A DNA stretch of 64,000 bases from Winogradskyella luteola. Its GTDB lineage: Bacteria > Bacteroidota > Bacteroidia > Flavobacteriales > Flavobacteriaceae. The stretch is taken from assembly GCF_019203985.1 (NCBI RefSeq), contig NZ_JAGSPD010000002.1:1-64000 (forward strand), given 5' to 3'. The notes beneath the pieces were generated by a model. The model searched no databases. It was not told the origin of the DNA and saw nothing but the letters and a program-made list of their open reading frames with translations. Position numbers and translations under genes: made by a program. Numbering within the stretch: position 1 is the first letter of the stretch; each line of letters opens with the position of its first letter. Shown here in pieces: positions 9,698-11,875 of this stretch.

Positions 9698-11434
9698 TTA
9701 GATATCTAAGCCAAAGGTTTTTTTAAGTAATTCTATATTTGGATTTTTCTCTTTTAATTTTTCGTATTTCTCTTTAGGCGTAAATGCATACTTTTTTGCA
9801 ACTTCTTCATTTACTGTTATATCCAAGTGTAAGTCAAAATTTTTAAGTGCTTTACGCAGATACGCCAATAATGGATATTGGGCGCGCTCAAGTTCAATTT
9901 TATTAGTGTTGTTGGAGTAGGTGAGATGTATCGCTGTACCTCTTAATTTGGGTTTATCCATTTGCAATATGGAAGCCATTATTTTTTCGCCCTTTTTATC
10001 CATTGCATTGGTATAGGCATTCCAAGCTTCCGTTAAAGCTTCTTGTGTAACAGGTTCTTTTGGTAAGTCTTCTTCATCAATAACAACATCTAGTTGACGA
10101 ATTTGGTGTTCTTTTTTCTCTTTGATGCTTTTTAGAGATAAGCCAGAAGTTGATTTCTTTGCAGTGTCAATCGATATTTTTGGAATTCTTACCGGTTTAG
10201 GTTCAGCAACTGTACTAACAGTCTCTTTTTCTACAATAGTATTTGTTTTTTGGGTTGTAGCTTCTACTTGAGTTGCTTGTAGTTGTTCTTTAGGTTTTTC
10301 AACTGGAATAGGCGTAATACCTTTTGTTTTAAAGTAAGATGGTGGAATTATGAAGTGCTTACTGTTTTTTTTTTCTCCATCAAAAGTGATAGAGGCTAAT
10401 TGCATAAGTGTTAATTCAACAAGTAAGCGTTGATTTTTACTGGTTTTATACTTTAGATCACAGTCATTGGCAAGTTGAATGCCTTTCATTAAAAACGCAT
10501 TGGATGTTTTTAGGCATTGCTCAACATACTTCTGTTTCGTTTCTTCACCAACCTCTAGCAGTTCTATCGTCGCTTGGTTTTTACAGACCATTAAGTCTCT
10601 AAAATGAGATGCCAAACCAGCAATATAATGGTGGCCATCGAAACCTTTTGACAATATAGAATTGAATTGTACCAACAACTCAGGTATTTTATTCTCTAAG
10701 ATTAAATCCGTACTTTCAAAATAAGTTTCATAATCGAGGACATTAAGGTTTTCGGTAACAGCTTGCCGTGTTAGGTTTTTTCCAGAAAAGCTTACTACAC
10801 GATCAAAAATGGAAAGTGCATCACGCATGGCACCATCTGCTTTTTGTGCAATGATATGAAGTGCATCATCTTCAGCAGTAATACCTTGTTCTTCAGCAAT
10901 ATATTTTAAATACTCTTTGGCATCAGAAACAGTAATGCGCTTAAAGTCAAATATCTGACAGCGCGATAAAATTGTTGGAATAATTTTATGTTTTTCTGTA
11001 GTAGCCAGGATGAAAATACAATGTTTGGGTGGCTCTTCCAAGGTTTTGAGAAATGCATTAAAAGCCGCTTGCGATAGCATATGTACCTCATCTATAATAT
11101 AGACTTTATATTTGCCAACTTGAGGTGGAATTCTAACCTGATCGGTTAAATTTCTTATGTCATCAACAGAATTGTTTGATGCGGCATCTAGCTCAAAAAT
11201 ATTGAAGGCAAAGTCTTCGTCTTCACTTGTATTGCCATCGCTATTTATCATTTTAGCCAAAATACGAGCACATGTGGTTTTACCTACCCCGCGAGGCCCT
11301 GTAAACAACAAGGCTTGTGCCAAGTGATTATTTTCAATAGCATTAAGCAAAGTATTTGTAATGGCTTGTTGGCCTACAACATCCTTAAAGGTTTGTGGTC
11401 TGTATTTACGTGCCGATACTACGAAGTGTTCCAT
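9698..11434 (-). CDS. dnaX: DNA polymerase III subunit gamma/tau
   Basis: Clamp-loader ATPase, 578 residues. AAA+ core: Walker A GPRGVGKT at 46-53, Walker B YIIDEVH at 112-118, the ELDAASNNSVDDIR motif, and sensor/SRC motif ILSRCQIF. Between Walker A and ELDAAS there is only a short acidic linker, so the four-Cys zinc module found in most DnaX proteins is missing. Domain III ends near residue 350. Next come an A10 run (codons 354-357), a Thr/Lys/Pro-rich linker and a tau-type C-terminal domain. Nothing else is in the transcription unit; a TAAATTTG box lies 19 bases upstream. Confidence 0.96.
   Translation of the reverse strand: MEHFVVSARKYRPQTFKDVVGQQAITNTLLNAIENNHLAQALLFTGPRGVGKTTCARILAKMINSDGNTSEDEDFAFNIFELDAASNNSVDDIRNLTDQVRIPPQVGKYKVYIIDEVHMLSQAAFNAFLKTLEEPPKHCIFILATTEKHKIIPTILSRCQIFDFKRITVSDAKEYLKYIAEEQGITAEDDALHIIAQKADGAMRDALSIFDRVVSFSGKNLTRQAVTENLNVLDYETYFESTDLILENKIPELLVQFNSILSKGFDGHHYIAGLASHFRDLMVCKNQATIELLEVGEETKQKYVEQCLKTSNAFLMKGIQLANDCDLKYKTSKNQRLLVELTLMQLASITFDGEKKNSKHFIIPPSYFKTKGITPIPVEKPKEQLQATQVEATTQKTNTIVEKETVSTVAEPKPVRIPKISIDTAKKSTSGLSLKSIKEKKEHQIRQLDVVIDEEDLPKEPVTQEALTEAWNAYTNAMDKKGEKIMASILQMDKPKLRGTAIHLTYSNNTNKIELERAQYPLLAYLRKALKNFDLHLDITVNEEVAKKYAFTPKEKYEKLKEKNPNIELLKKTFGLDI
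10365..10374 (-). other. A10 homopolymer in dnaX, candidate slippage site for a gamma subunit
   Basis: The coding strand reads GGA GAA AAA AAA AAC AGT AAG. One extra A gives Glu-Lys-Lys-Lys-Gln then TAA (358-residue product). One A fewer gives Glu-Lys-Lys-Thr-Val-Ser-Thr-Ser then TAA (361 residues). The run also contains the heptamer A AAA AAC, a classic -1 ribosomal slip sequence. The position is just after clamp-loader domain III, where a gamma form would end. Confidence 0.5.
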
Positions 11435-11532: not shown

Positions 11533-11536
11533 TCGA

Positions 11537-11868
11537 AAGTAAATCGCCTTATCGATTCTAATTTTAGAGTAGGAAAGTCCGAACACCATAGTGCAATCAT
11601 AGTGGTTAACAGCCACCAGTCGCAAGGCTAGGAAAAGTGCAACAGAAAGTATGTACAGGTAATGCTGTAGTGAAATCAGGTAAACTCTATGTGGTGCAAT
11701 GCCATGTAAACTAACGTTTGAGCGTGCACGCGCGATTGTTAGAGGGTAGGCAGCTAAAGTTTGCTGGTAACAGTAAACGCAGATAAATGATAAGGGTATT
11801 TTGTTCTTGTTATGAAGAGATTCTAAAACAAGTTCAGAATAAACAGAATTCGGCTTATAGATTTGCTT
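11537..11868 (+). ncRNA. rnpB: RNase P RNA, bacterial type A
   Basis: Catalytic RNA that removes the 5' leader of tRNA precursors. The universal blocks are present in order: GAGTAGGAAAGTCCG (11567 on), ACAGAAA (11643), AGGTAAAC near 11690, GAGGGTAGGC near 11742, GATAAATGAT and ACAGAATTCGGCTTA (11843 on). Ends are set by helix P1: AAGTAAATC (11537-11545) pairs with GATTTGCTT (11860-11868), nine pairs with one G-U. The length of about 332 is normal. It is divergent from dnaX and ends in a strong hairpin terminator. Confidence 0.95.
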
Positions 11869-11875
11869 AAATACA

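Follow-up and report, generated by a model that had tools for sequence, protein, structure and literature searches.

A conserved A10 run with an abutting 5' hairpin as a candidate transcriptional slippage site in dnaX of Winogradskyella luteola and other Bacteroidota

Introduction

RNA polymerase holds an RNA:DNA hybrid of 9-10 bp and slips efficiently at runs of nine A or T residues, and in Thermus thermophilus both tau and gamma are obtained from dnaX messages with a mixed number of A residues, a mechanism that has been linked to two lysine tRNAs (PMC5009743). The same review describes a Roseiflexus IS in which slippage is enabled by an inverted repeat placed immediately 5' of the motif (PMC5009743). 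In 2013, a GeneTack survey reported 17 split dnaX genes from 12 genera, nine of them with an A10 run, for which transcriptional realignment was proposed; Chlorobi are named in this account (PMC3711429). A different dnaX frameshift, located downstream of the gamma site, is described for Blochmannia (PMC3017870). Slippage that leads to a truncated product has been considered hard to judge by sequence comparison (PMC1088944), an obstacle that is lessened in the present case, as split relatives of the gene exist. Here we describe an A10 run and an associated hairpin in dnaX of Winogradskyella luteola, found in a 64,000-nucleotide stretch of DNA (referred to as the window), and compare the site across the Bacteroidota.

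Methods

The search for DnaX covered 40 genomes of relatives, that of W. luteola among them (38 matched, with no match at the cut-off for G001 and G027), as well as 199 genomes of the family (193 matched) and 148 genomes of the phylum (146 matched). Named loci were taken from genome contigs and represent the best 80 of 593 matches. G009 matched over residues 318-577 only and was left out, as were the order-level matches from G029, G030, G032, G036, G038 and G039. The family sample consists of the 28 best matches, 60 further loci (approximately every second of those listed) and 13 loci from the phylum draw, and includes two split loci that were picked by hand (L231 and L232); from the phylum draw itself, all 20 loci of the same class and 53 loci of other classes were used. 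Of the 292 loci collected, four without a dnaX N-terminus and two duplicates were dropped. The 286 loci analysed comprise 23 from the genus, 101 from the family, 9 from other families of the order, 80 named loci, 20 from the class and 53 from other classes of the phylum. The run was scored as at least nine sense A residues within a 330-base stretch starting at the end of domain III.

Results

The dnaX gene of the window

In a profile search, the protein encoded by the window dnaX scored 699.7 bits against NF011531 (cut-off 685) and 384.7 bits against TIGR02397 (cut-off 250), the latter match ending at residue 346. Domain III (PF12169) is matched up to residue 348 with 23.6 bits (E 4.9e-5), a score slightly below the Pfam cut-off of 24.4 bits. 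The sense context of the A10 run that follows is GGA GAA AAA AAA AAC AGT. The gene is fused and does not belong to the split type, in which frame 0 stops at the run and the tau C-terminus lies in another frame. Scripted translation of messages with A8, A9, A10, A11, A12 and A13 yielded products of 357, 361, 578, 358, 362 and 579 residues, respectively. Stops are thus located near the run in both non-zero frames, with the A11 product ending in ...EKKKQ and the A9 product in ...EKKTVSTS. A first-pass annotation of this DNA had located the run just after domain III, had given 361 and 358 residues as the outcome of losing or gaining a single A, and had pointed to an A AAA AAC heptamer within the run. 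The domain match and the translations bear out each of these statements, and the heptamer is in frame. The coordinates of all features are collected in Table 1. The divergent neighbour of dnaX is the RNase P RNA (RF00010, 180.7 bits) at 11536-11873 on the (+) strand.

Table 1. Features of the dnaX locus, in window positions.
Feature	Position	Strand	Basis
dnaX, tau in template frame; gamma/tau protein of 578 aa	9698-11434	(-)	NF011531, TIGR02397, Pfam
A10 run (candidate slippage site), codons 354-357 (E354-N357)	10365-10374	(-)	T10 on (+) strand; conserved
tau-only C-terminal region, downstream of the run	9698-10364	(-)	reading frame and translation of length variants
TAA stop of the 358-aa product read from A11 (-1 frame)	10359-10361	(-)	scripted translation; place read off the sequence
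TAA stop of the 361-aa product read from A9 (+1 frame)	10348-10350	(-)	within ATA ATT; scripted translation; place read off the sequence
A AAA AAC heptamer, in frame; possible ribosomal -1 site (rival reading)	10364-10370	(-)	sequence
Hairpin, 8 bp: CTCTATCA (10394-10387), loop CTTT, TGATGGAG (10382-10375)	10375-10394	(-)	folding, position peak, family covariation

Words of nine A residues are not over-represented in the window, with 6 matches found against a shuffle mean of 15.8. Arguments from chance in the window alone were therefore dropped, and the case rests on conservation. In the W. luteola genome, A10 or longer occurs at 15 places including the dnaX run (16 overlapping matches). Other internal A10 runs of the genome were considered as slippage sites and rejected, as no hairpin was found at either L303 or L306. 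The former (G000:C47:184886-184895) is a sense A10 at codon 145 of a 313-codon ORF, with no hairpin upstream and with a stretch just after the run that we take to resemble dihydrofolate reductase; the latter (G000:C50:108385-108394) is a sense A10 at codon 86 of a 423-codon open stretch.

Conservation of the run across the phylum

Of the 286 dnaX loci sampled, 257 have a sense run of at least nine A residues close to the domain III end. Control stretches of equal length from the same loci contain such a run in 0/286 cases upstream and in 1/281 downstream, which demonstrates that the run occurs more often than expected by chance. It is found in all loci of the genus (23/23), the family (101/101) and other families of the order (9/9), as well as in 71/80 named loci, 19/20 loci of the class and 34/53 loci of other classes of the phylum. 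The length of the run is A10 in 201 of the 257 loci, with A9 in 33, A11 in 18, A12 in 3 and A13 in 2; exactly ten A residues are present in 91/101 family loci and 21/23 genus loci. The distance between the run and the domain III end is about 70 bases or less in most loci and larger in a few (139 bases for L033 and 229 for L108). Codon phases 0, 1 and 2 are all represented at the start of the run, by 22, 184 and 51 of the 257 loci, respectively; hence it is not the protein sequence that is conserved.

No run was detected in 29 of the 286 loci, corresponding to 9/80 named loci, 1/20 loci of the class and 19/53 loci of other classes. Gamma is therefore probably dispensable in some of them. The nine named loci include the three assigned to Bacteroidaceae (L064, L065 and L071); slippage appears to have been lost there, and these loci would offer a natural control group.

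Fused and split genes

With the exception of L027, whose locus ends in the run, all loci with a run could be assigned to a frame class. Tau is fused in 196 of these 256 loci and split at the run in the remaining 60, in which tau itself would need slippage. The frame of the tau C-terminus requires one additional A (or a -1 shift) in 55 of the split loci and one A less in five. In 59/60 split loci the slipped-frame ORF matches the tau C-termini of fused genes; in the other one, L104, a 65-residue stretch is cut by the locus end. The split state is found in every named locus of Flavobacterium (five) and of Weeksellaceae (three), in 6/6 loci of the coded genus g143 and in 8/13 loci of g238 and g243 taken together, two groups that may be Chlorobi-like, going by their group codes. 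These counts make sequencing error an unlikely cause. Both states are found within Aquimarina and within three coded genera. Parsimony on one quick tree, where tree error may inflate either count, gives at least 30 changes of the fused/split state (54.6 with shuffled labels) and 31 changes in the codon phase of the run.

Two cases of close relatives illustrate individual changes. In the coded genus g147, one of L149 and L151 has a fused and the other a split dnaX; L149 contains an extra C between hairpin and run when compared with the common family sequence, shifting the frame while both the hairpin and A10 are kept. The run of Flavobacterium sp. YO12 (L048) is A9, as opposed to A10 in two close congeners, which places tau in the other slipped frame; this A9 could be natural or an assembly error.

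Stops and codon choice around the run

Both non-tau frames stop within five codons in 211/256 loci, as compared with 9.5-12.5% of control positions, and within ten codons in 238/256 loci (28-32% of control positions). In four loci, the more distant of these two stops lies beyond 20 codons. For the fused genes, a -1 stop is located within five codons in 192/196 cases (control 46.6%) and a +1 stop in 166/196 (control 31.3%). The +1 frame is hence guarded too, which goes beyond a ribosomal -1 site, for which the -1 stop alone would be needed. Codon choice follows a similar pattern in the 109 fused genes of genus and family. Lysine codons inside the run are AAA in 226/226 cases, compared with 4445/5862 (76%) elsewhere in these genes, and the IIP motif following the run has ATA as its first Ile codon in 83/83 (the 83 genes with the motif at that place), compared with 1191/4952 (24%) elsewhere; the genes are related, and neither count is made up of independent cases. 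It is this ATA that supplies the TAA of the +1 frame.

A hairpin abutting the run on its 5' side

The hairpin of the window ends directly at the run (gap 0). The 26 bases upstream of the run fold with -8.1 kcal/mol (z -3.4 relative to mononucleotide shuffles), and the downstream side shows a weak fold only (-1.9 kcal/mol, z -0.6). As bulged hairpins outside the family had escaped a search restricted to unbroken stems, the energies of 26-base windows were used instead. In the family (96 coded genera), the mean MFE reaches its minimum at the run start, with -7.5 versus -0.1 to -3.7 for other upstream windows. The corresponding value is -5.2 both for 59 named genera and for 17 genera from the class; for the 21 genera from other classes, it is -3.0 and does not form the minimum. 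The abutting 26-base window belongs to the lowest 10% of the same gene in 98/113 Flavobacteriaceae genera, in 27/67 other Bacteroidia genera and in 3/21 genera outside class Bacteroidia (mean percentile 0.39); named and coded genera may overlap in all of these counts. The idea of the hairpin as a phylum-wide feature was rejected on this basis, the signal being clear in class Bacteroidia only and weak in other classes. Even some Flavobacteriaceae lack the hairpin or have a different one, and distant relatives may retain one made up of different letters, such as the 10 bp hairpin (gap 0) of Rufibacter L110. The site has no match in Rfam at E<=5.

Covariation was analysed for 46 of the 61 unique hairpin 20-mers, which share one register; the 15 in another register were left out. 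A total of 25 cells are changed on both sides of the stem, compared with 9.6 (sd 2.4) in shuffles that ignore relatedness and 4-10 with slid partners. The number of pairs with any two-sided change is 4, which is not above the shuffles (231/500 as high). When all 61 unique 20-mers are considered, 70.7% of cells pair, versus 42-48% when slid.

Probable transcriptional slippage and its alternatives

From the sequences and their comparative analysis, we consider it highly probable that the site represents a cassette for programmed transcriptional slippage as in Thermus dnaX, with the 5' hairpin acting as a stimulator in the manner of the Roseiflexus IS. Once the ten A residues have been copied, the 9-10 bp hybrid would consist entirely of rA:dT and could re-pair shifted by one or more bases. 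The nascent hairpin would fold at the RNA exit and pull at the upstream end of the hybrid, favouring realignment. Messages with 10 or 10+3n A residues would lead to tau, while any other number would lead to an early stop and gamma-like proteins of about 357-362 aa. The reverse would apply to the split relatives, where unslipped mRNA would give gamma and slipped mRNA tau. That the run equals the hybrid in length would account for the conservation of 9-11 A residues in place of seven.

The first-pass annotation had likened the site to Thermus slippage and had also mentioned a ribosomal -1 slip; it looked to relatives for a run kept as a homopolymer, which is what the genus and family loci contain without exception. 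The sequence comparisons favour transcriptional slippage on several grounds: the runs are mostly 9-11 A residues long and begin in any of the codon phases, stop codons are over-represented in both the -1 and the +1 frame, tau C-termini are located in either slipped frame and the structure abuts the run on its 5' side. The hairpin, and relatives that would need a slip in order to make tau, are additions to that earlier account.

We regard programmed -1 ribosomal frameshifting at A_AAA_AAC/AAA, the mechanism of E. coli dnaX, as a possibility that is unlikely and fits less well than transcriptional slippage; both mechanisms may operate at one site. Every A10 holds a -1 heptamer, and the one of the window is in frame. 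With tau in the -1 frame in 55/60 split genes, a ribosomal shift could in principle serve these, and the very close -1 stops of the fused genes are likewise compatible with it. A Chlorobium candidate with E. coli-like stimulators is mentioned in a 2016 review (PMC5009743). However, a -1 heptamer accounts for neither the length of the run, which is mostly 9-11 and not 7, nor the enrichment of +1 stops, and five split loci need a shift in the opposite direction. Furthermore, a hairpin that touches the run would be unwound by a ribosome positioned on the run. A downstream stem-loop as ribosomal stimulator was looked for in the window fold and in the genus survey and was not found: windows downstream of the run show no more folding than other parts of the gene (mean percentile 0.56-0.68), and they fall in the lowest tenth in 3/113 Flavobacteriaceae, 10/67 other Bacteroidia and 3/21 other genera. 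The same measurement applied to E. coli dnaX revealed the reverse arrangement, with no structure upstream (-2.7 kcal/mol, z 0.6) and a stem-loop downstream (-19.4 kcal/mol, z -1.8). The GGAG of the window touches the run and is located 4 nt before the heptamer; a spacing of about 10 nt is usual for Shine-Dalgarno-like stimulators.

It is very improbable that the run represents a neutral A-rich lysine linker, as might arise in AT-rich genomes, with no role in slippage. AAA is indeed the commoner Lys codon, and when the codons of fused linkers are reordered, A>=9 is still obtained in 1265/9800 shuffles (12.9%), a proportion that reflects the presence of the run's own Lys codons in the pool. A neutral linker is nevertheless at odds with the near absence of such runs from the control stretches, with their occurrence in all codon phases and with the split genes, which need recoding. 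The run is also found, if less often, in high-GC loci (17/29 at 55-70% GC). DNA-level phase variation, whereby replication slippage would switch tau on and off at a coding homopolymer whose length differs between some relatives, is hardly credible given the constancy of A10 in family and genus, a hairpin covariation without evident role at the level of DNA, and the implausibility of tau loss in part of a population for a replicase subunit.

Discussion

Returning to transcriptional slippage, the sequences as a whole make it likely that Bacteroidota and Chlorobi-like relatives inherit a dnaX slippage cassette (mostly A9-11 and, in Bacteroidia, often with an abutting nascent hairpin) that would set the tau:gamma ratio, and we infer that gamma has a function. 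As slipped and unslipped messages would both always be made, the template frame would hardly matter, and the gene could repeatedly switch between gamma-by-slippage and tau-by-slippage, as in the at least 30 changes counted by parsimony on one quick tree. To our knowledge, no replication gene of a cellular genome has so far been assigned a slippage stimulator; the hairpin would be the first.

If this is correct, polymerase slippage provides two clamp-loader subunits across much of a large phylum, and Flavobacterium, Chryseobacterium and others would obtain the long replicase subunit only through inaccurate transcription at one spot. The 257 candidate slippage sites, fused or split and with or without a hairpin, would provide a comparative set for establishing how slippage is driven by structure in the nascent RNA. 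Whether gamma is needed, a debated question, could be tested through synonymous edits. Split dnaX genes may get annotated as broken, or as two separate genes.

Split dnaX genes with A10 are already known from the 2013 study; the hairpin, the spread of the run and the repeated switching between fused and split genes appear to be new. The available part of the 2013 GeneTack account contains neither the fused A10 relatives nor the hairpin (PMC3711429), and a literature search, mostly of papers outside subscription and in part of their text, did not bring up the hairpin, a fused A10 dnaX from Bacteroidota or repeated fused/split switching. In contrast to the split GeneTack genes, the window gene is fused.

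The E. coli system concerns the same gene, with gamma made through a recoding event. Its heptamer is A6G (A_AAA_AAG) where the window has A_AAA_AAC, and its stem-loop is 3' of the site, whereas the structure of the window is 5' of the run and none was found 3'. E. coli dnaX additionally has an upstream Shine-Dalgarno-like stimulator, as described in the GeneTack paper (PMC3711429). In the Roseiflexus IS630, as in the window, an inverted repeat immediately precedes the slippery motif on its 5' side and adjoins the hybrid (PMC5009743). The IS differs in having a T5C5 motif and a one-base deletion, where the window has a homopolymeric A10 at which insertion and deletion would each give a product. 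A further system close to that of the window is dnaX of T. thermophilus, compared here by its published description: both are fused tau genes with a sense A run and stops in both other frames. The run is A9 in T. thermophilus and A10 in the window, and the gamma-like product, made by slippage in the former, is a candidate in the latter. The window run has an abutting hairpin, it belongs to another phylum, and the relatives of its gene switch between fused and split forms.
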